Part shown: in pieces, positions 4,377-49,989 of the stretch
How positions within the stretch are numbered: position 1 is the stretch's first letter
Layout of the letters: each line of letters starts with the position of its first letter
NCBI RefSeq assembly: GCF_025950525.1
Contig: NZ_JAPDGS010000006.1
Coordinates: 124,001 to 188,000 of the forward strand
Origin: Stagnihabitans lacustris
GTDB taxonomy: Bacteria > Pseudomonadota > Alphaproteobacteria > Rhodobacterales > Rhodobacteraceae
Direction of reading: 5' to 3'
DNA: 64,000 nucleotides
Notes under the pieces: generated by a model
Told to the model about the DNA's origin: nothing
Database searches by the model: none
What the model saw: the letters and a program-made list of their open reading frames with translations, nothing else
Program-made: the position numbers and the translations under genes

Positions 4377-5312
4377 TCAGGCCCGGGGATGCGAGGCCGC
4401 ATAGACCTCCATCAGCCGCGCCGCATCGACGGCCGTATAGGCCTGGGTGGTCGACAAAGAGGCATGGCCCAACAGCTCCTGGATCGCGCGCAGATCGCCG
4501 CCCGCCGACAGAAGATGCGTCGCAAAAGAGTGCCGCAGCGCATGGGGCGTCGCGGTCGAGGGCAGGCCAAGACGCAGCCGCGCCTGCTCCATCGCCAGGG
4601 CAATCAGCCGCGGGTTCAGCGCGCCGCCGCGGGTGCCGCGGAACAAAGGTTCATTGCGTTCAACGGGATAGGGGCACAGCCGCACATAGACCGCCACCGC
4701 CTCACGCGCGACGGGCAGGACGGGCACCAGCCGCTCTTTCCCGCCCTTGCCGGTGATGCGCAGCACGTCGGGCAGGGGGAAACTGGCCCCCGTCAGACCC
4801 AGCGCCTCGGAGATCCGCAGCCCGCAGGCATACAGAAGCGTCGTCACCGCAAGGTCGCGCGCGCCCACCCAGCCCTCACGCGCGGCGCCCATGTCTGCGA
4901 TGACCTCGGCCGCGCCATCCACCGACAGCGGCCGCGGCAGCTTGCGCAGATATTTCGGCCCCCGCGCCTGCAGGACGACGGTCGGGTCGATCTCTTCGCG
5001 GTCGGCCAGCCAACGCATGAAATTGCGCACCGAAGACAGCGCCCGCGCCAGCGACCGTGCCGAAAGCCCGCGGTCGCGCTCATGCGCCATCCAGGCGCGC
5101 AGGTCGGTCTGGTTGACTTGGCCCAGGGTCGCCACCCCCTCTGCCCCGCCATGATAGCCGGACAGAAAGGCCAAAAATCCCCGTAAATCAGCGGCATAGG
5201 CGTGAAGCGTGCGGGGCGAACAGCCCTTTATGGCCGAAAGATGATCCAGCCAGCGCGTGATGGCCGCCTGTTGTCCTTCGGAAAACCCGGACGAGACATC
5301 TAGGCCAGCCAT
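4377..5312 (-). CDS. xerC: tyrosine recombinase XerC
   Basis: Site-specific recombinase that, with XerD, resolves chromosome dimers at dif. The 311-residue protein has an N-terminal SAM-like core-binding domain (about 10-105) and a catalytic domain with all expected residues: Arg166 in CGLRISEA, Lys189 in TGKGGKER, His257-x-x-Arg260 in HALRHSFATH, His283 in LGHASLSTT and nucleophile Tyr292. The gene overlaps the end of the DUF484 gene by 13 bp. DUF484-xerC adjacency is conserved across proteobacteria, which supports XerC rather than an integrase or XerD. Confidence 0.93.
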   Translation of the reverse strand: MAGLDVSSGFSEGQQAAITRWLDHLSAIKGCSPRTLHAYAADLRGFLAFLSGYHGGAEGVATLGQVNQTDLRAWMAHERDRGLSARSLARALSSVRNFMRWLADREEIDPTVVLQARGPKYLRKLPRPLSVDGAAEVIADMGAAREGWVGARDLAVTTLLYACGLRISEALGLTGASFPLPDVLRITGKGGKERLVPVLPVAREAVAVYVRLCPYPVERNEPLFRGTRGGALNPRLIALAMEQARLRLGLPSTATPHALRHSFATHLLSAGGDLRAIQELLGHASLSTTQAYTAVDAARLMEVYAASHPRA

Positions 5313-5983
5313 TTCCGCATCACCCTTTCGAACACGCCGCCGAAAAAGATCAGAAGGTCGGTGCCATGGGTCGGTTTGAACTGGTGCGGGTCCTCGGCGC
5401 CCATGGCCAGAAGGCCGGGCAAACGCCCCTCGCCCAGGTCCAGCCGAAGCAAAGCCTCCGACCTGATCCAGTCGCCCTTGTCGCCATAGATGCCGCCCGG
5501 ATCGGGCAGGGTCTGGCGCAGCATCACCGGGCGGGCCATGGCGCGCCCCCGCGTCAGATAGTCGTTCACAAAGCCCGGTTTGGCCGCATAGATCGCCCCG
5601 GAGGCCGGATCGGGCACCGGGCCTTCCGACCGGGTCTCGATCACCAGACGGATCGCCTCGACGCGCAGGGTCTGGGTCACGGTGCCGGTCAGGGTCGCCA
5701 GAAAGCCTGCGAAATCCATAGGTTCCAGCAGCTGCAGGATGGCGCGGTGAACCTGGTTCGTGCCGGCCAGGTTCTCGTAGGCCGCCGCGATCACTGTGCG
5801 ATGCGTGTCCTCCAGCCGGTCAAGCTTTTGGTTCAGCCGCTCCATCGCCAGGCCGCGCAGGTCGACGACATTGCCCCCCACCGCCCGATCATTGGCGCCA
5901 ATCAGCGCCTGCATGACGTCGCGGTCCTCGAGCAAAGCCTCGGGCGCGGCGAGAATCCGATCTCGGGTGTCTTGGTCGATCAT
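5300..5983 (-). CDS. DUF484 family protein
   Basis: A 227-residue cytosolic protein of the DUF484 family, whose GAF-like fold is usually encoded just before xerC. The N-terminus is helical, then LVIETRSEGP and the C-terminal block GLLAMGAEDPHQFKPTHGTDLLIFF typical of the family. Function unknown; the neighbourhood suggests a link to chromosome maintenance but nothing in the sequence proves it. ATG 5983 is chosen as the start of the conserved MIDQDTRDRIL segment with GAGG upstream; the longer open frame to 6094 runs through the regulatory region. It is divergent from the enolase-superfamily gene. Confidence 0.85.
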   Translation of the reverse strand: MIDQDTRDRILAAPEALLEDRDVMQALIGANDRAVGGNVVDLRGLAMERLNQKLDRLEDTHRTVIAAAYENLAGTNQVHRAILQLLEPMDFAGFLATLTGTVTQTLRVEAIRLVIETRSEGPVPDPASGAIYAAKPGFVNDYLTRGRAMARPVMLRQTLPDPGGIYGDKGDWIRSEALLRLDLGEGRLPGLLAMGAEDPHQFKPTHGTDLLIFFGGVFERVMRKWLA

Positions 5984-6102
5984 ATGGGCCTCATGTCCGG
6001 CTCTGACGGCCGATTTGCGCGCAGTATAGGCGATTTCCCGGCAAAGTCCCGATGGAAAATGCAGATTGTGCGGCCTGAGTCCGTGGCGCCACATGCGTCT
6101 TT

Positions 6103-6148
6103 TGCGACATCACCTGTCGCGGAGGCCGTTTGCGACATGCCTTGTCGC
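6103..6148. promoter_or_regulatory. two tandem palindromes, candidate operators
   Basis: Two inverted repeats of identical design, GCGACA-N5-TGTCGC, lie at 6104-6120 and 6132-6148, with centres 28 bp apart, upstream of the enolase-superfamily gene (start 6204) and about 120-165 bp upstream of the DUF484 start. Half-sites are perfect in both copies and the spacers differ (TCACC, TGCCT). The 28-bp phasing (under three helical turns) fits two dimers bound side by side. The regulator is unknown; no transcription factor gene is adjacent. Confidence 0.55.
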
Positions 6149-6203
6149 GGGGGCGCAAGGGGGCGCGCGGCCGGACGCTTAGGCTGGAAGCCGGAGGTGG
6201 CCA

Positions 6204-7445
6204 ATGAAACTGAAGGACCTTGAGATTTTTGTCGTGGCGCCGCCTGCGCCGGGTTGGGGCGGGCGCTATTGGATTTTTACCAAGCTGACGACGGATGACG
6301 GGATCACGGGTTACGGCGAATGTTATGCCTCGACCGTGGGTCCCAAGGCGATGAAGGCGGTGATCGAAGACGTCTTCGAACGCCATATGCAGGGCGAAAA
6401 CCCCGAAAACATCGAGCTGATGTATCGCCGCGTCTATTCCAGCGGGTTCACCCAGCGCCCCGATCCCACGGTCATGGGCGCCTTTTCGGGGCTGGAGATC
6501 GCCTGTTGGGACATCCTGGGCAAGGCGCGGGGCCGTCCGGTCTGGGCTTTGCTGGGCGGGCGGATGAATGACCGGGTGCGGTCCTACACCTATCTTTATC
6601 CCGAACCCGGCGAGGATGCCGCCGAATTCTGGGTCAATGCCGACATGACCGCCGAGGCGGCGGCGCGTGCAGTCAAGCAGGGCTTTACGGCGGTGAAGTT
6701 CGACCCCGCCGGCCCCTATACGATCCGCGGCGGGCATGAGCCTGCGATGTCGGATATCTCGCGTTCGGTGGACTTCTGCCGGAAAATCCGCGCGGCGGTG
6801 GGTGACAAGGCCGATTTGCTGTTCGGCACCCATGGCCAGTTCACCACCCCGGGCGCGATCCGGATGGGGCAGGCCTTGGAGCCCTTCAACCCGCTGTGGT
6901 ATGAAGAGCCGATCCCGCCCGACAACCTGCTGGAATTCGCCGAAGTCGCGCGCCACATCCGGATTCCCCTCGCGACCGGAGAGCGGCTGACCACCAAGGC
7001 CGAGTTCGGGACCCTTCTGCGCGCCGGTGGGGTCAAGATCCTGCAACCGGCCTTGGGGCGGCTGGGCGGGATATTGGAGGCGAAGAAGCTCTCCGCCATC
7101 GCCGAGATTTTCAACGCCGAGATTGCCCCGCATCTGTATGCCGGGCCGGTGGAATGGGCGGCCAATATCCATCTGGCGGTGTCGATCCCGAACCTGTTGA
7201 TGGCCGAGACGATCCAGACCGGCGGCGCCTTTCACCTGGCGCTGATCAAGCACAGCCTGAAATGGGAGGACGGCTATATCCTGCCGCCTGAAGGTCCGGG
7301 TCTGGGGATCGACTTCGACGAGGACCTGGCGCGGGCCCATGCCTATGAGGGGTCGGGCCTGCATCTGCAGATGCAGGAAGCACCCTGTGATTACCGCCAC
7401 GGCAACCGGTTCGAGGGCGGGGCCCCGGCGTATAACCCGCAGTAG
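6204..7445 (+). CDS. mandelate racemase / enolase superfamily enzyme, probable sugar-acid dehydratase-like
   Basis: A 413-residue enolase-superfamily protein with an N-terminal capping domain (1-130, MGAFSGLEIACWDILGK) and a TIM-barrel. Visible barrel residues: KxD in AVKFDP (164-168), EEP (234-236), TGER with Glu260, and APH with His310. The segment where galactonate-dehydratase-like members carry the first metal ligand (DxHGR) reads FGTHGQ here, so His210 is kept but the Asp appears to be Gly208. The substrate is unknown; acid-sugar dehydration or isomerisation is the family-level guess. GGAGGTGG precedes ATG 6204. It stands alone behind tandem palindromes, so is likely under its own regulator. 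Confidence 0.85.
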   Translation: MKLKDLEIFVVAPPAPGWGGRYWIFTKLTTDDGITGYGECYASTVGPKAMKAVIEDVFERHMQGENPENIELMYRRVYSSGFTQRPDPTVMGAFSGLEIACWDILGKARGRPVWALLGGRMNDRVRSYTYLYPEPGEDAAEFWVNADMTAEAAARAVKQGFTAVKFDPAGPYTIRGGHEPAMSDISRSVDFCRKIRAAVGDKADLLFGTHGQFTTPGAIRMGQALEPFNPLWYEEPIPPDNLLEFAEVARHIRIPLATGERLTTKAEFGTLLRAGGVKILQPALGRLGGILEAKKLSAIAEIFNAEIAPHLYAGPVEWAANIHLAVSIPNLLMAETIQTGGAFHLALIKHSLKWEDGYILPPEGPGLGIDFDEDLARAHAYEGSGLHLQMQEAPCDYRHGNRFEGGAPAYNPQ

Positions 7446-43777: not shown

Positions 43778-43854
43778 GGCTAGGTAGCTCAGTTGGTTAG
43801 AGCATGCGACTCATAATCGCAGGGTCGGGGGTTCGAGTCCCCCCCTCGCCACCA
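43778..43854 (+). tRNA. tRNA-Met (CAU), elongator
   Basis: A 77-nt tRNA with encoded CCA. D arm GCTC-AGTTGGTTA-GAGC, anticodon stem-loop TGCGA-CTCATAA-TCGCA (anticodon CAT at the loop centre), variable GGGTC, T arm GGGGG-TTCGAGT-CCCCC, discriminator A. The CTCATAA loop and absence of the initiator 1-72 mismatch indicate elongator Met rather than initiator; a lysidine-modified Ile2 tRNA cannot be fully excluded. The acceptor stem GGCTAGG / CCTCGCC has a T-C mismatch at pair 4-69. A terminator follows. Confidence 0.9.
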
Positions 43855-43927: not shown

Positions 43928-45247
43928 TCAGCGCGGCAATGTCACCCTGACCTCCAGCCCGTCCGGCCTGCCCTCGGGCGGCGAGAGAAAGCGCAGGTCT
44001 GCGCCCGAGCGTTCGGCGATGGTCGATACGATGGCCAGGCCAAGGCCCATGCCCTGGCTGTCCTCGCCCTTCTCGAAGCGCTGACCCAACCGGGCCAGGG
44101 TCTTGACGTCCAGCACCGGGCCCGCGTTCACCACCCGCAGGACGCCATCCGCCGATAGCGCGACATCGACCGGCACGCCCGCGGCCCCGTGGCGAAGCGC
44201 ATTCTCGATCAGGTTGCGCGCCAAAATCCCCAGCGCGTCGGGCAGCGTCACGGAGAGGACCGGCGCGTCGGGCAGGGCAAGCCGCACTTCGCCCCCCGCC
44301 CGCGTCGCATCCTGAACCACGATCCGCAGCGCGGTCCGCATGTCCGAGGCCTCGCCCGTGATCCGCCCCCCTTCGGCGCGGGCCAATTGCATCAGCTTTT
44401 CCGAGGTCCGCATCAGGCGTTTCAAGGTCGCCTCGATCTCGTCCACCCGGGGCGCCGCTCCGGGCAGTTCCGCCCGCAGACGCTGCAGCTGGGCGATGGC
44501 GCCGGCCACCGGGGTGCGCAGTTCATGCGCGGCATGAGAGGCAAAGGCGCGCTCGGCCTGAAAGCCCGCATCCAGCCGGGTGAACAGGCCGTTCAACGCC
44601 TGGGTGATGGGCTGCAGCTCTGCCGCGCCAGCCGGCGCAAGGGGCGACAGGTCCTGCACCCCACGCAGGCCGACCGCCGCCCGCAGATCGCGCAGGGGGC
44701 GCAGGCCGCGCCGCACGGCCCAGGCGATGCCCAAAAGGCTAAGCGGCAAAAGCACCGCCAGGGGCAGGACCAGCCGCAGCATCAAGGCTTGCACCAGCGC
44801 CGCCCGCCCCGTCAAAGGCGCCGCCACGGTGATCGTCAGCCCCGCCCCGCTGGCCGTATAAAGCCGATGCGTCTCGGTGTCGGAAAACCCTTTGGGCGGC
44901 GCGGGCGGCAGGACCGCCGTCCCCTTGGAGGCCAGAACAACCCCGCCGCTGTCCGTGACGCGGTAGATGGTGCGGCCGCGCAGGTCCCCCCGGGTGTCAT
45001 CGTCGTGGTCGTCGTCATGGTCGCGCCTTTCGACCTCGCCTTCTTCGACCTCGCGGTCTTTGCGCCAAGGTTTGGCCCCCTGTGCGGCCAGCGGCAGGAT
45101 GCGTTCGGCCGTGGCGCGCAGGTCGTCATCAAACAGGGTCCGGACCTCGCGGCTAAGGCGGTCGGCCGTCAGCCCCGCAGCCGCCAGCCAGAACAGCGTC
45201 GCCCCCAGCCCCACGATCAGCATCAACCGCCCCTGAATGGACCGCAT
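43928..45247 (-). CDS. sensor histidine kinase with acidic periplasmic loop
   Basis: A 439-residue EnvZ/PmrB-type kinase. TM1 (8-28) and TM2 (155-178) flank a periplasmic sensor. Between residues 63 and 88 it has a striking charged stretch (REVEEGEVERRDHDDDHDDD) that contains an ExxE motif, the metal-coordination pattern used by iron-sensing PmrB. HAMP is followed by the H box FASHAAHELRTP (His241), N box ARNLIENALRHG and G box GMGLGLAIV. ATG 45247 shares one base with the stop of the regulator gene. A metal (Fe3+, Mn2+ or Ca2+) ligand is inferred from the acidic loop and from the neighbouring Asp/His-rich protein. Confidence 0.92.
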   Translation of the reverse strand: MRSIQGRLMLIVGLGATLFWLAAAGLTADRLSREVRTLFDDDLRATAERILPLAAQGAKPWRKDREVEEGEVERRDHDDDHDDDTRGDLRGRTIYRVTDSGGVVLASKGTAVLPPAPPKGFSDTETHRLYTASGAGLTITVAAPLTGRAALVQALMLRLVLPLAVLLPLSLLGIAWAVRRGLRPLRDLRAAVGLRGVQDLSPLAPAGAAELQPITQALNGLFTRLDAGFQAERAFASHAAHELRTPVAGAIAQLQRLRAELPGAAPRVDEIEATLKRLMRTSEKLMQLARAEGGRITGEASDMRTALRIVVQDATRAGGEVRLALPDAPVLSVTLPDALGILARNLIENALRHGAAGVPVDVALSADGVLRVVNAGPVLDVKTLARLGQRFEKGEDSQGMGLGLAIVSTIAERSGADLRFLSPPEGRPDGLEVRVTLPR

Positions 45248-45906
45248 CACGGTCTCCCCAGCCGGTAGCCCAGGCCCCATTCGGTCTTGATCACCCAGGC
45301 GCCCAGCTTTTTGCGCAGGCGCGACACATGGACCTCGATCGCATTGCTGTCGACGCCCTCGCCAAAGGTGTAAAGCCTCTCTTCCAGCTGCGCCTTGGAC
45401 AGGACCTGGCCGGGGCGGGCCAGAAAGGCTTCGAACAGCACCCATTCCCGCGCGGTCAGGGGGACGGGGCGGCCCGCCAGGTGGATCGTGCGGGCGGCGA
45501 TGTCGATGTCCAGCGCGCCCAGCGTCACCAGCGGGTTCGGATTGCCCGCATAGCGGCGCGCAACCGAGCCGATGCGGGCCGAAAGCTCTGACAGGTCAAA
45601 GGGTTTGACCAGATAGTCGTCGGCGCCGGCGTTCAGCCCCTCGATCCGGTCGCTGACCTGATCCAGCGCGGTCAGGATGATGACGGGCGTGACCTCTCCG
45701 CGTCCGCGCAGCGTCCGCAGAAAGGGCAGGCCACGGCCATCGGGCAACATCAGGTCCAACAGGACAAGGTCAAACGCGGTGGTGTGCAGCGCAGCCCCCG
45801 CCATGTCCAGCCGCGTGACCCAATCGACCGAATGGCCATCGGCGGCGATCTGGTCGCGCACCGCGGCGCCCAGCACCGTGTCGTCTTCGATCAAGAGGAT
45901 GCGCAT
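45247..45906 (-). CDS. OmpR-family response regulator
   Basis: A 219-residue regulator. Receiver: EDD (7-9), phosphoacceptor Asp51 in LVLLDLMLPDGRG, conserved Thr and Lys in ILTALDQ and DYLVKPFDL. C-terminal winged helix: LTAREWVLFEAFLARPGQVLSKAQLEERLY and SNAIEVHVSRLRKKLG. The QseB/PmrA-like organisation fits activators of envelope or metal responses. It is divergent from the Asp/His-rich gene, and the shared region carries period-11 direct repeats as expected for OmpR-type dimers. GGAG precedes ATG 45906. Confidence 0.93.
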   Translation of the reverse strand: MRILLIEDDTVLGAAVRDQIAADGHSVDWVTRLDMAGAALHTTAFDLVLLDLMLPDGRGLPFLRTLRGRGEVTPVIILTALDQVSDRIEGLNAGADDYLVKPFDLSELSARIGSVARRYAGNPNPLVTLGALDIDIAARTIHLAGRPVPLTAREWVLFEAFLARPGQVLSKAQLEERLYTFGEGVDSNAIEVHVSRLRKKLGAWVIKTEWGLGYRLGRP

Positions 45907-45939
45907 GGGGGTCTCCTTTGTGCTGTCTTACTGCGCGGC

Positions 45940-45992
45940 AAAGCTGACGGAAAGCTGAAGCAGGTTTGTGGGCGCCGTCAGGAACCCGTCAG
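45940..45992. promoter_or_regulatory. period-11 direct repeats, candidate response-regulator sites
   Basis: AAAGCTGA occurs at 45940-45947 and 45951-45958 (11 bp apart), and CCGTCAG at 45975-45981 and 45986-45992 (11 bp apart). CTGACGG at 45944-45950 is the reverse complement of CCGTCAG, so the two pairs face each other. Read from either side the site is CTGACGG-N4-CTGA. Tandem half-sites spaced one helical turn are the usual OmpR/PhoB pattern. The region lies between the two divergent operons. Confidence 0.55.
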
Positions 45993-46036
45993 AAGCCGGG
46001 CCCATATCGGGGTCATCGCAAGTGATGGAGCAGATG

Positions 46037-46456
46037 ATGAAACCGAAAACCAAAGCGCTGTTGGCCGCCCTGACCGTCCTGTCGCTGACCCAGGCGGGCT
46101 TTGCGCAAGTCTCGACCGTGCCGCCCCTGGCGCCCAAGGTCGAAAGCCCCGCCGTGCAGGTGGAGTATGAGGAAGAGGAAGAGGGCTGGTTCGGCCTCTT
46201 TGGCCATGACAAGGGAGACCATGGCGGCAAACATGGGGGCCACCGCCGCGGGGGGCATGACGACGACGGCGATGATGAGCGCGGCGATGACGGCGATGAT
46301 GACGGCGACGATGATCGGGGTGAGGGCGAGCGCGGCGAGGATAATGACCGCGGCGCCGCAGCTGCGCCCTGCGCTCAGGACGCCCAAGGCGCCTGCAAGC
46401 CGCCGGCCAATGGGCTGTTCCAAAACGGCACCGCACCCAAGGCCCAGACGAACTGA
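46037..46456 (+). CDS. exported Asp/His-rich protein, probable metal-binding
   Basis: A 139-residue protein with a Sec signal peptide (ALLAALTVLSLTQAGFAQ, cleavage near residue 23). EYEEEEEGWFGLFGHDKGDH begins a region (43-106) of extreme Asp/His/Glu/Gly/Arg content, with runs such as HDDDGDDERGDDGDDDGDDD, then Cys112 and Cys120 and a Pro/Asn-rich tail. Low complexity means homology is weak evidence, but binding of divalent or ferric ions in the periplasm is a plausible reading. ATG 46037 is chosen over ATG 46034 and 46025 by spacing to GGAG. First gene of the operon with DUF2271, reductase and ApbE. Confidence 0.75.
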   Translation: MKPKTKALLAALTVLSLTQAGFAQVSTVPPLAPKVESPAVQVEYEEEEEGWFGLFGHDKGDHGGKHGGHRRGGHDDDGDDERGDDGDDDGDDDRGEGERGEDNDRGAAAAPCAQDAQGACKPPANGLFQNGTAPKAQTN

Positions 46457-46552
46457 CCACCCAAGGCGCAGACCAGCATAACGCCCAAGGCGCAATCAAC
46501 CGACGGCCCAAGGGCCCGGACGCGCTTCGGGCCACCCTGTGAAAGGACCAAG

Positions 46553-47014
46553 ATGAAGACCCTGACCGCGATCCTCACCGCCTCGACCGCTTTGGCCGCC
46601 TTCCCGGCCATGGCGCGCGACGTCACCCTGACCACGACGCTGAACGCCTATGGCGGCGATGGAGCCTATCTGGCCTATTACGTCACCGATGCCAGCGGCG
46701 CCTATGCGGGCAGTCTGTGGATGGCGGGGGGGCGCACCAAGTATTACCGGCATCTGTCGGGCTGGTCCCAGGCCTCGGGCGGGGATACGTCCGAGGTCGC
46801 GGGCATCACCGGCGCCTCGGTTGGCGCGGGGCAGACGCTGACCCTGACGCTGGACCTGGCCGACAGCCTGTTTGACGCGGGCTATGTGCTGCATGTCGAT
46901 GCCGCCGTCGAACATATGCGCGACAGTGCCAACGAGGTCGAAGTGCCCCTGACCTCGGCCGGACAAAGCGTGTCGGGCGGGACCTATATCCAGACCCTGT
47001 CTTACGGCCAATAA
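46553..47014 (+). CDS. DUF2271 family exported protein
   Basis: A 153-residue periplasmic protein: signal peptide (LTAILTASTALAAFPAMA, cleavage near residue 21) and a beta-rich domain with AYLAYYVTDASGAYAGSLWM, GRTKYYRHLSGW and a C-terminal YIQTLSYGQ. Residues 84-89 are GITGAS, in the position where DUF2271 proteins commonly carry a DGVSGAT-like segment, which matches the Ser/Thr-Gly-Ala-Thr/Ser motif modified by ApbE flavin transferases. ATG 46553 follows GAAAGGA. The next gene starts 1 bp after its stop. Likely an FMN-carrying periplasmic electron carrier; inference from motif and context. Confidence 0.8.
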   Translation: MKTLTAILTASTALAAFPAMARDVTLTTTLNAYGGDGAYLAYYVTDASGAYAGSLWMAGGRTKYYRHLSGWSQASGGDTSEVAGITGASVGAGQTLTLTLDLADSLFDAGYVLHVDAAVEHMRDSANEVEVPLTSAGQSVSGGTYIQTLSYGQ

Positions 47015-47015
47015 G

Positions 47016-49130
47016 ATGACCCGCCCCCTGCATCGCCTGACCGGCCTGATCCTGGGCCTGTTCCTGACCGTGACCGCGCTGTCGGGCGCCGCCCTGGCTG
47101 TATTCCCCGCGTTTGAGGCCTGGACCGCCCCCGCCTTGCCCGCCACGGCCTTTGAACTGGTGGCCAGCGTGACCAAGGCCCTGCCAGGGGTCCAGGAGAT
47201 CGCGGTGTCGGCCTCGGGTCAGGTGACGGCCTATACGGCAGAGGGCGGCGTGGTGGTCGATGCGATGACGGGGCAGGCCTTGGCCAAGGTCGCGCCGCAA
47301 CCTTGGCTGATCTGGCTGGAAAACCTGCACCGGGCGCTGTTTTTGGGCGACACAGGGCGGATCGCGGTCGCGGTCTTGGCGGCGGCCATGCTGGGGATGT
47401 GCGTGACCGGGGCGCTGTTGCTGGCGCGGCGGGCGGGGGGCTGGCGGGGGATGCTGGCGGGTCAAAAGGGCGCGGGGTGGGGGCGTATCCATGCCGAGGT
47501 CGCGCGGCTGGCGGCGCTGGGCCTGATCCTGTCCTCGCTTTCGGGGCTGTGGATGACGGCTGCGACCTTTGACCTGTTGCCGGCCGCGGCGGGGGCGGAC
47601 TATCCCGCTGCGGTCTCGGGGCGGACGGGGGCCGTGTTGCCCTTGGACTTTCCGGCCAAGGACCTGCGCGGCCTGACCTTGCCGGGCGCCGACGAGCCCG
47701 TGACGCTGACCACGGTGGACGGCGAATTCATGATCGACCAGGGCACCGGCGCGGTCCTGACCCAGGCCGCCCCGACCTGGGCCGACCGCATCACCGCCTG
47801 GGCCGAGCTGTTGCACACCGGGCGCGGGGCGGCCCTGTTGGGCGTGATCCTGGGCCTGGCCGCCCTGACGACGCCCTTTCTGGCGCTGTCGGGCGTCTTG
47901 ATGCGGGGCCTCACTCGCCGCCGCAGCTTTGGCCCGGCAGATCAGGCCGAGACGGTGATCCTTGTGGGCTCTGAGGGCGGTGCGACCTGGGGCTTTGCCG
48001 AAACCCTGGCCCGCACGCTAAAGGGTCCGGTTCACCTTGCCGCGCTGCAGGATTTCGCGCCCGAGGCCTGGCCCCGCGCCCAACGGCTGTTGATCCTGAC
48101 CGCGACCTATGGCGACGGCGAGGCGCCTGCCTCGGCCAAGGGCTTCCTGGATCGCCTGGCCAAAGCGAAACCCACCATGCCGCTTGCCGTCCTGGGCTTT
48201 GGCGACCGGTCCTTTCCGCGCTTTTGCGCCTATGCCGTCGAGGTCGCCCGCGTGGCCCGCGCCGGGGGCTGGCCTGAATTGACCCCCCTTGCCACCATCG
48301 ACCGCCAAAGCGGCCAGGACTTCGCCCACTGGGGCAGCGCGCTGGGCGCGGCCTTGGGCCAGGACCTGAGCCTGACACATCACCCCGACTTGCCCGCGAC
48401 GCAAAGCCTGACCCTGACCACGCGGCGCGACTATGGCCAGGCGCTGCAGATGCCGGCCGCCATCCTGCGCTTTGCCCTGCCAAACCGCAGCCTTTGGGCG
48501 CGACTGACGGGGAAGGGCGGCTTTCAACCGGGCGACCTTCTGGGCGTGATCCCTCAGGGCGCGACCCTGCCGCGGTTCTATTCGCTGGGCTCGGGCGCGC
48601 GGGACGGCTTTGCCGAGATCTGCATCCGCAAGCATGAGGGCGGGCTTTGCTCGGGCCAATTGCATGCGCTGCGTCCCGGTGATCAGGTTCGGGCCTTCAT
48701 CCGCCCCAATCCCGCCTTCCATGCCGGCCGCCGCCCGTTGATCCTGATTGGCGCGGGCACCGGGATCGGGCCTCTGGCGGGTATTATCCGCCATGCGCGC
48801 CGCCCGGTGCATCTGTTCTTTGGGATGCGCCACCGGGACCACGACTTTTACCACCAAGAGGACCTGACCGAATGGCAGGCGCAGGGGCGGCTGACCGGTC
48901 TGACGCTGGCCTTCTCCCGCGGGGATCGCCCGCATTACGTGCAGGACGCCTTGCGCGATCAGGCCGTCACCCTGCGTGAGGCCATGGCCAAGGGCGCCCG
49001 CATCATGGTCTGCGGCGGGCGCGAGATGGGGCAGGGGGTGCGTGCCGCCCTGACCGAGATCCTGGCGCCTCTGGGTCTTACGCCCGACCAATTGGCCAAG
49101 GAGGGCCGCTATGCCGAAGACATCTATTAA
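47016..49130 (+). CDS. PepSY-TM / flavodoxin / FAD-NAD(P)H reductase fusion
   Basis: A 704-residue inner-membrane reductase. Helices at about 11-30, 114-136, 162-182 and 271-294 form the PepSY-TM unit, with His6, His105, His159 and His267 at helix ends as possible heme ligands. Periplasmic segments lie between helices 1-2 and 3-4. Cytoplasmic part: flavodoxin-like FMN domain (VILVGSEGGATWG at 314-326, LTATYGDGEAP), then a CysJ-like FAD domain (RFYSLGSG with RxYS at 520-523) and NAD(P) domain (GAGTGIGPLAG, 579-589; VCGGREMGQGV). It should carry electrons from NAD(P)H across the membrane to periplasmic acceptors, as for ferrisiderophore or flavin reductases. The stop overlaps apbE by 20 bp. Confidence 0.9.
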   Translation: MTRPLHRLTGLILGLFLTVTALSGAALAVFPAFEAWTAPALPATAFELVASVTKALPGVQEIAVSASGQVTAYTAEGGVVVDAMTGQALAKVAPQPWLIWLENLHRALFLGDTGRIAVAVLAAAMLGMCVTGALLLARRAGGWRGMLAGQKGAGWGRIHAEVARLAALGLILSSLSGLWMTAATFDLLPAAAGADYPAAVSGRTGAVLPLDFPAKDLRGLTLPGADEPVTLTTVDGEFMIDQGTGAVLTQAAPTWADRITAWAELLHTGRGAALLGVILGLAALTTPFLALSGVLMRGLTRRRSFGPADQAETVILVGSEGGATWGFAETLARTLKGPVHLAALQDFAPEAWPRAQRLLILTATYGDGEAPASAKGFLDRLAKAKPTMPLAVLGFGDRSFPRFCAYAVEVARVARAGGWPELTPLATIDRQSGQDFAHWGSALGAALGQDLSLTHHPDLPATQSLTLTTRRDYGQALQMPAAILRFALPNRSLWARLTGKGGFQPGDLLGVIPQGATLPRFYSLGSGARDGFAEICIRKHEGGLCSGQLHALRPGDQVRAFIRPNPAFHAGRRPLILIGAGTGIGPLAGIIRHARRPVHLFFGMRHRDHDFYHQEDLTEWQAQGRLTGLTLAFSRGDRPHYVQDALRDQAVTLREAMAKGARIMVCGGREMGQGVRAALTEILAPLGLTPDQLAKEGRYAEDIY

Positions 49131-49989
49131 GCTGAACGGCCCGACGATGGGCGCGCGTTGGCAGGCGCAGACGCATCAGGATTGCGACCCCGCCCCCCTG
49201 CAAGCGGCGGTGGACGCGGTCGAGGCGCAGATGTCGCTTTGGCGGCCCGACAGCGATCTTTGCCGGGTGAACGCCGCCGCTTGTGGCGCCTGGACCGACC
49301 TGCCCGAGGCGCTGACCGAGGTGCTAAGCGCCGCCTTGCAGATCGGTCGCGCCTCGGGTGGGGCGTTCGACATCGGGCTGGGCGATGCCTGGGCCGCCTG
49401 GGGCTTTGGCCCCGCGCCGGCGTCAGAACCGGCGATCCTTGCCGCCCGCCGCCCGCGCCTTCCGGTCCATGAGCTTTTGGAGCTGGACGCCCCCAACCGC
49501 CGGCTTTGCAAGCACGGCCCCGTGACCCTGGACCTGAACGGCATCGCCAAGGGTTACGGCGTCGACCGCCTGACCCGGGCCGCCCGGGCGCAGGGCGTCA
49601 CCGAGGGCCTGTTCGCCATCGACGGAGAGTTGCGCGCCCTGGGTGGCCCCTTTCCCGTCGCGGTCGAGGCGCCGATTGTGGGCCACCGCGCCGCCCATTC
49701 CATGCTGGCGCTGCAGGATGCGGCGGTGGCGACATCGGGCACCTATCGGCATTTCGTCACCGTGCAGGGGCGGAGGTTGTCGCATCTGATCGACCCCGCC
49801 ACCGGGATGCCCCTGACCGATCCGCCCGATCAGGTCACGGTCCTGGCCCAGGACTGCATGACCGCCGATGCCTGGGCCAAGGTCTTCATGGTGCTGCCGC
49901 CCGCCCGCGCCCTGACGCTGGCCGCGGTGCAAGGTGTCTCGGTGCTGGTGCTTGGTCCCCATCCCTTCGCCACCGGGGTCTTCGCCTGA
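49111..49989 (+). CDS. apbE: FAD:protein FMN transferase (ApbE)
   Basis: Attaches FMN covalently to Ser/Thr of target proteins. The 292-residue protein has the family start GPTMGARWQ (10-18), GGAFDIGLG, LDLNGIAKGYGVDRL (140-154), TSGTYRHF, HLIDPATGMPL and the metal-binding C-terminal DCMTADAWAKVFMVLP. There is no signal peptide or lipobox before the conserved core, unlike most ApbE proteins, which act in the periplasm. It overlaps the reductase gene by 20 bp, so it is translated with it. The DUF2271 protein is the obvious candidate substrate. Confidence 0.92.
   Translation: MPKTSIKLNGPTMGARWQAQTHQDCDPAPLQAAVDAVEAQMSLWRPDSDLCRVNAAACGAWTDLPEALTEVLSAALQIGRASGGAFDIGLGDAWAAWGFGPAPASEPAILAARRPRLPVHELLELDAPNRRLCKHGPVTLDLNGIAKGYGVDRLTRAARAQGVTEGLFAIDGELRALGGPFPVAVEAPIVGHRAAHSMLALQDAAVATSGTYRHFVTVQGRRLSHLIDPATGMPLTDPPDQVTVLAQDCMTADAWAKVFMVLPPARALTLAAVQGVSVLVLGPHPFATGVFA

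Follow-up and report, generated by a model that had tools for sequence, protein, structure and literature searches.

Why should genes that appear to move electrons out of the cytosol lie back to back with those for a sensor kinase and a response regulator, and how does flavin reach an exported protein when the transferase encoded beside it carries no signal peptide? Both questions are raised by a locus at positions 43,928 to 49,989 of the DNA analysed here (the window, a stretch of 64,000 nucleotides from Stagnihabitans lacustris, NCBI RefSeq assembly GCF_025950525.1, contig NZ_JAPDGS010000006.1, positions 124,001 to 188,000). The locus encodes a DUF2271 protein, a PepSY_TM reductase fusion and an ApbE enzyme, which transfers flavin mononucleotide (FMN) from flavin adenine dinucleotide (FAD) to protein. 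The answer favoured here is that a dedicated two-component system (TCS) probably controls its own operon together with the divergent one, and that the latter would use NAD(P)H in the cytosol to feed electrons into the periplasm, most likely to Fe3+. The wiring of the reductase operon to the TCS is very likely and the electron path through the fusion to DUF2271 likely, with iron as a best guess. The electron-transfer core is of an already published kind and is not itself new; what is new is the divergent TCS tied to one DUF2271 group, the paired boxes between the operons, the linked ApbE without a signal peptide, a C-terminal NGLF tail and the plasmid-borne relatives. The gene set agrees with that described in an earlier note on this DNA, a kinase/regulator pair divergent to genes for an Asp/His-rich protein, DUF2271, the PepSY fusion and ApbE, and its features are, in window coordinates:

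43928..45247, minus strand: sensor histidine kinase (HK), QseC/PmrB-like, with an Asp/His-rich periplasmic loop; 439 residues; Pfam HisKA/HATPase; overlaps the response regulator gene.
45247..45906, minus strand: OmpR-family response regulator (RR), QseB/PmrA-like; PF00072 Response_reg and PF00486 Trans_reg_C.
45944..45960, plus strand: predicted tandem regulator box, CTGACGGAAAGCTGAAG.
45976..45992, minus strand: predicted opposed tandem box, CTGACGGGTTCCTGACG.
46037..46456, plus strand: exported Asp/His-rich protein; 139 residues; no Pfam family; shared C-terminal tail.
46388..46453, plus strand: NGLF tail at the C-terminus of the Asp/His-rich protein (tail match).
46553..47014, plus strand: exported DUF2271 protein; PF10029, E 2e-32; TGAS at residues 86-89, predicted acceptor Ser89, codon 46817-46819.
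47016..49130, plus strand: PepSY_TM - flavodoxin - FAD/NAD(P) reductase fusion; PF03929, E 5e-29; flavodoxin and NAD_binding; His 6, 105, 159 and 267 invariant.
49111..49989, plus strand: ApbE, FAD:protein FMN transferase; signal peptide absent; PF02424, E 4e-67.

The first line of evidence is linkage. Of 149 genomes from the window's family, 33 carry DUF2271 (32 above the protein-family cut-off), as do 34 of 196 in an order sample and 47 of 299 in a phylum sample (43 above cut-off); the three samples overlap. Among 105 loci, the window included, 69 were placed in group I, labelled by the motif [ST]GAS and containing the window, and 36 in group II; L068, which lies below the profile threshold, and five sub-cut-off places were left out of the counts. 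Because group I is labelled by this motif, its presence in 69/69 members is circular, and the fair tests are a tree and a second set of 80 loci, the best 80 of at least 559 relatives found in a scan with the group I alignment and not picked by motif. In the tree of the 105 proteins a single branch with support 100/100 splits the two groups fully, with a bootstrap that had not settled and some long rows, and in the 80-locus set [ST]GAS is present in all 80 DUF2271 proteins. The 80 loci and the 69 group I loci overlap in species (for example L183 and L052) and are not independent.

A divergent match to the RR or HK accompanies 59 of the 69 group I loci, and four of the ten loci without a match have less than 2.2 kb of upstream DNA. 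No such match was found in the 36 group II loci, which include L112 and L127 from the window's own family; the only queries in this search were the RR and HK of the window, strict thresholds were applied, and a distant TCS could have escaped detection there. Within the 80-locus set both RR and HK lie divergently in 76. A chance link between TCS and reductase is ruled out by this recurrence, and the neighbourhood check that the earlier note had proposed comes out in its favour, the genes staying linked in relatives.

The second line of evidence lies in the DNA between the operons, where exact 6-mer repeats with an 11-bp period amount to 60 overlapping pairs (shuffled mean 3.6, maximum 11) and a 9-bp period is also slightly raised (15 against 4.0 in shuffles). 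These resolve into boxes of the general form CTKAM-N6-CTGAM, with a strict form CTGAMR-N5-CTGAMG, which stand on opposite strands, mostly 33-34 bp apart, and which the earlier note had not pointed out. At least one box is present in 53 of 56 mapped loci and one per strand in 46 of the 56, the corresponding frequencies in shuffles being 0.4% and 0; none was found in 33 group II upstream regions (33 of the 36 group II loci were taken into this control). The 80-locus set gives the same picture, with at least one box in 70/76 and a pair spaced 30-36 bp in 62/76. Where the gene for the NGLF-tailed protein is set apart, a further box lies upstream of it in 42 of 43 loci, as against 3/43 control stretches. 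The window's genome (4.05 Mb) contains the strict box three times, two of these being 45944-45960 and 45976-45992, and the backwards pattern four times; with only three occurrences the regulon looks small here. Across 18 relatives the strict box has 2 to 16 matches per genome and its control 0 to 4, an excess that makes further targets there possible. The RR would bind the box pair and thereby control its own operon and the divergent one. The wiring that the earlier note had proposed is thus supported by a conserved linkage and a conserved paired cis-element. The half site, CTGAMR, is unlike that of the related DbfQRS and BqsPQRS systems, which we take to be of CTTAA type.

What, then, would such a TCS control? 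The association of PepSY_TM, ApbE and DUF2271, on which the earlier note relied, is in print: PepSY-like flavinylated extracytosolic electron-transfer systems have been described in 3220 clusters, 2833 of them with DUF2271 (eLife 2021, PMC8238504; this and the other papers are cited from the portions available). The window shows the marks of this class: a PF03929 or PF16357 protein (here PF03929) encoded no more than five genes away from ApbE, FMN-bind or DUF2271, an exported flavinylation component (one or more) and [ST]GA[ST] in its DUF2271. A PF03929 protein, ApbE and an exported [ST]GA[ST] DUF2271 thus stand in one cluster as in the published systems, and the window shares with 1077 published PepSY-like genes a NAD-binding domain on the PepSY protein (PMC8238504). 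It differs in having no DUF4198 and in having the divergent TCS, the paired boxes, a separate DUF2271 group and the tailed Asp/His-rich protein; in the available portion of PMC8238504 neither TCS linkage nor a signal-less ApbE was found mentioned.

The four-helix PepSY protein read earlier from the letters is matched by an AlphaFold model of the fusion (mean pLDDT 81, pTM 0.50) with four long helices at residues 2-37, 111-139, 155-184 and 273-299, and His6, His105, His159 and His267, invariant in 15 aligned sequences including the window's, are candidate heme ligands. The C-terminal half matches P450-reductase/CysJ structures, that is, a diflavin reductase. Electrons from NAD(P)H would pass to FAD and on to the FMN of the flavodoxin-like domain, from there to hemes held by the four histidines in the PepSY_TM helices, then to FMN covalently carried on Ser89 of DUF2271, and finally to a periplasmic metal ion, most likely Fe3+. 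The last three genes had been described as separated by a 1-bp gap or overlap: the 1-bp gap between DUF2271 and PepSY stands, and the PepSY/ApbE overlap is really 20 bp.

That the cue is a metal is plausible, and iron is the most likely one. The Caulobacter operon CCNA_03155-03159 (DUF2271, DUF4198, ApbE, PepSY) shares the core families and is a Fur target that rises on iron limitation (PMC12004947; table of PMC3751524); unlike the window it is Fur-controlled, has DUF4198 instead of the Asp/His-rich protein, and no TCS is mentioned for it in the portions available. In Alteromonas macleodii, DUF4198/DUF2271 pairs are Fe-responsive, and iron-responsive loci there combine DUF2271 with a PepSY_TM-like or an ApbE-like (COG1477) domain. 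A regulatory system resembling PfeR adjoins one TonB siderophore receptor with a PepSY permease, but in the available text it is not described over a DUF2271-PepSY-ApbE operon (PMC7190382). An orphan regulator of iron homeostasis has been reported without ApbE (PMC12442407), and the DUF2271 literature searched, in the portions available, yielded no report of TCS control of a DUF2271-PepSY-ApbE operon.

Neighbouring genes were checked with Pfam and counted as homology matches anywhere in the DNA stretch taken per locus (which is not proof of one operon). In the 80-locus set PepSY_2 accompanies 77 loci, a P-type ATPase 46, VIT 41, a ferric-reductase-like protein 24 and cytochrome b561 19; in the 69 group I loci the numbers are 50, 26, 24, 16 and 22, and in the 36 group II loci none of the five was found. 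The metal responsiveness claimed earlier is therefore supported, indirectly, by the VIT, P-type ATPase, ferric-reductase-like and PepSY_2 partners of relatives but by none beside the window's own locus.

Relatives are also found on conjugative plasmids, often next to VIT and a P-type ATPase. The DUF2271 region of one relative, L213, is matched by 83 plasmid records, 61 of them typed conjugative and 38 from Pseudosulfitobacter, and the window's DUF2271 protein by 97; a P-type ATPase and VIT lie directly 3' of ApbE in three annotated plasmid examples. Six loci, five of which belong to named genera, share 97.5-98.7% identity with L213 across some 12 kb, and these near-identical loci in different genera (L203, L208, L211, L213, L219, L221, L222) point to recent transfer. 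The L213 P-type ATPase lies above the cut-offs of general heavy-metal and Cd-family models, and a TPC motif can be read in its sequence, which we take to be tied to Fe/Ni transport. A tRNA-Met(CAT) at window positions 43778-43854 ends 73 bp short of the stop end of the kinase gene. A tRNA-flanked island was considered and discarded: the tRNA-Met region has no repeat of at least 14 bp in the window, its single 12-bp match (42563) lies on the other side of the gene, and a repeat of the tRNA-Met 3' end was looked for beyond the far side of the cluster and not found.

These neighbours lend themselves to a second account, in which an excess of Fe2+ or of another cation is what the TCS detects and the locus is a resistance device, VIT and the P-type ATPase exporting metal and the reductase keeping periplasmic metal exportable or soluble. 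We hold it to be quite possible, if short of probable. The conjugative plasmids, the ATPase and VIT directly after ApbE and the near-identical 12-kb loci all suit it, as does the report that BqsS directly binds Fe2+ (PMC12666569). Against it, no exporter adjoins the window's locus, and related group II operons are Fur targets raised on iron limitation (PMC12004947, PMC3751524, PMC7190382).

The second of the opening questions concerns the side of the membrane on which the flavin is attached. The window's DUF2271 has one [ST]GA[ST] motif, and the fusion, kinase, regulator and Asp/His-rich protein have none. No PDB entry matched a structure model of DUF2271 (mean pLDDT 83) at E <= 0.001; those that matched weakly are C2-like beta sandwiches. 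By a simple hydrophobicity rule, not SignalP, with a lax threshold of at least 1.6 and a strict one of at least 1.9, a Sec-type signal-like N-terminus is present on DUF2271 in 184/185 loci at 1.6 and in 112/185 at 1.9; many score 1.85, and the window's protein, at 1.77, is signal-like at the former threshold and not at the latter. A twin-Arg motif occurs in 1/185.

The linked ApbE behaves otherwise. Taking as linked any ApbE in the same DNA stretch as DUF2271 (a few, at L060, L138 and L198, lie more than 4 kb off), and allowing any possible start, 13/161 are signal-like at 1.6 and 7/161 at 1.9. Six of the 13 start no more than ten residues before the domain match, five are group II proteins with ambiguous N-termini, one has an over-long upstream stretch and the last is the ApbE-DUF2271 fusion of L105. 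In the 105-locus set the lax rule marks 2 of the 63 linked enzymes from group I and 6 of the 21 from group II, so the case for a signal-less enzyme is strongest for group I. Unlinked ApbEs, nearly all from group I genomes, are signal-like in 23/24 cases at 1.6 and 20/24 at 1.9 (24 of 25 loci, L282 having yielded no scored ApbE). The catalytic motif begins at residue 15 in 65 of 77 ApbEs of the 80-locus set, and in the window's enzyme, whose single possible start lies seven residues ahead of the scored domain match, neither signal peptide nor lipobox was found, a feature that the earlier note had passed over. That note had ApbE attach FMN to exported proteins; the enzyme is cytosolic by sequence, and flavinylation would then have to precede export. 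With no signal peptide on ApbE, DUF2271 is most likely flavinylated in the cytosol before Sec export, and for group I as a whole this order of events is favoured on balance. A DUF2271 of another species has been shown to receive covalent FMN from its cognate ApbE when the two were made in E. coli without their signal peptides (PMC8238504). A review has ApbE as a periplasmic lipoprotein, with most members seemingly secreted, and names enzymes of the cytosol where the target is itself cytosolic or fused (PMC12052999). A literature search, supplements aside, turned up no report of exported substrates being served by an ApbE of the cytosol.

It is unlikely, though worth stating, that the linked ApbE modifies a cytosolic protein and that DUF2271 is served by the genome's other, exported ApbE. 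The genome does encode another full-length ApbE (L283), whose N-terminus is signal-like, some [ST]GA[ST] is present in 27 of 148 PepSY fusion reading frames of relatives, and plasmid copies from Klebsiella (L230) and Marinobacter (L231) have DUF2271, PepSY and VIT listed and no ApbE listed in a gene table that is incomplete. Yet the linked ApbE gene overlaps the PepSY gene downstream of DUF2271, only DUF2271 among the five window proteins scanned has the motif, and the published pair works in the E. coli cytosol (PMC8238504).

What of the Asp/His-rich protein? Its most likely start is the ATG at 46037 (the query of its Pfam scan was one codon shorter at the start), and it ends in a tail of the form AG[ST]xxPPxNGLFxxGxxPxxxxN or a variant, found in 107 proteins of 43/69 group I loci and 64/80 loci of the 80-locus set and in 0/36 group II loci. 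NGLF begins 15 residues from the end in 104 of the 107; the carriers are 57 acidic proteins, 41 PepSY_2 proteins and 9 others, and a PepSY_2 protein of L056 (6692-7186) has NGLF three times at its C-terminus. In 12 genomes searched the tail occurs at 13 DUF2271 loci and elsewhere just once, at E 0.74 in G130. The window's own match is weak (E 0.0017, 59% identity) and is the sole one in its genome at E <= 1 (contig 170388-170453). A tail that is nearly exclusive to the locus, fixed in position and borne by unrelated carriers hints that it docks with some partner from the same locus, which we offer as an open idea; the protein may bind cations and dock through its tail to another part of the system, so that the metal buffer of the earlier note would be a docked one, not a buffer alone. 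More tentatively still, the two threads can be joined: a cytosolic, signal-less ApbE may flavinylate DUF2271, with Sec threading the FMN-bearing chain, and in the window's group the tag on unrelated acidic or PepSY_2 proteins may dock with either the reductase or the kinase sensor, letting a metal-binding protein report to a TCS dedicated to it.

In the kinase, Pfam places HisKA and HATPase above cut-off and HAMP under it; the best NCBIfam models are QseC and PmrB for the kinase and QseB/PmrA for the RR, all under cut-off. A 505-residue reading frame reaching 45445 was rejected as over-long, the ATG/TGA overlap with the RR favouring a start at 45247. The periplasmic loop, REVEEGEVERRDHDDDHDDDTRGD, is acidic as previously noted but this is not shared generally, most sister kinases being without a strongly acidic loop. 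Loops are more acidic where no PepSY_2 was detected: on average 9.89 of 15 residues are Asp/Glu/His in these 9 kinases and 4.79 in the other 123, with phylogeny uncontrolled. The notion that an acidic loop is the general mate of the Asp/His-rich protein was dropped, the PepSY_2 trend being uncontrolled and exceptions (L170, L181, L163, L185, L150, L161, L201) having both. REHDE, of RExxE type, is present in 47/132 kinases and absent from the window's; RExxE, which may be common to such sensors in general, was likewise discarded as a proof that iron is sensed.

The closest regulatory parallels are DbfQRS and BqsPQRS, which also have a QseBC/PmrAB-like pair with, as in most of the window's relatives, a small exported PepSY protein near it (PMC12714742, PMC12666569), and for which opposite-strand layouts are known (PMC12714742). 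The window differs in its half site, in having an electron-transfer system as target operon and in that no small exported PepSY protein was found beside the TCS at its locus, such a match being present in 77/80 of the 80-locus set. Might the module then be one of envelope stress, controlling the reductase by chance, with membrane damage and not metal as its cue? The frequency of PepSY_2 in relatives speaks for it, and the kinase DbfS has a small PepSY protein, DbfQ, as its binding partner in a pathway activated by outer-membrane perturbation (PMC12714742); PepSY_2 is missing from the window locus, however, the strict box occurs only three times in the genome so that the regulon looks small, and metal transporters recur as partners; we hold this reading to be unlikely. 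Least probable is copper or another redox-active ion as acceptor and signal in place of iron: the kinase also scores, under cut-off, on the heavy-metal CztS/SilS/CopS subfamily and the L213 ATPase passes the heavy-metal models named above, but the kinase scores far under every curated cut-off shown, and VIT and ferric-reductase-like partners fit iron or manganese better.

Several points weigh against the reading of a TCS that controls iron-directed electron export. Six group I loci (L060, L067, L107, L108, L138, L140) have more than 4 kb of upstream DNA and no TCS match, and the search of group II was narrow, as said. Genes for VIT, a P-type ATPase, PepSY_2, a ferric-reductase-like protein or a cytochrome b are absent from the window's locus; at L288 (G000:C14:168000-182000, about 5200-7400) PepSY_2, a cytochrome-b561-like reading frame and VIT are grouped on another contig of this genome without a box. 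Relatives with VIT and a metal ATPase could serve efflux and not uptake. The FoxB type proposed earlier for the reductase holds for the four helices and the conserved candidate heme-ligand histidines, and FoxB (7ABW, a PepSY-type inner-membrane reductase) gives weak alignments spanning the His6 and His105 regions, but the window protein has a diflavin reductase, the sequence match is not significant (E 0.41) and FoxB is not among the 50 structure matches listed. As to ApbE, the signal calls rest on the simple rule given above, signal-like enzymes in group II limit generality, and L105 encodes a 492-residue ApbE-DUF2271 fusion with a clear signal peptide, hence exported (an ApbE-like (COG1477)-DUF2271 protein of Alteromonas is in print, PMC7190382). 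The ApbE of the published pair was "signal peptide-truncated" for expression (PMC8238504), so at least that one is exported.

To our knowledge no phenotype has been described for the window's DUF2271 group. If the favoured reading is right, a widespread branch of flavin electron export would have its own sensor and not iron-starvation control, and would have moved onto conjugative plasmids together with metal transporters. An ApbE that works in the cytosol on a substrate destined for export would revise the view that exported proteins receive their flavin outside the cytosol; it would account for the enzyme's access to FAD, and it raises the question of whether Sec passes a flavinylated chain. 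The locus-exclusive tail would offer a short, fixed candidate docking signal on unrelated carriers, which is open to test. The sensor wiring, the protein tag and an ApbE seemingly in the wrong compartment are each unexpected for such a system, and each is testable.

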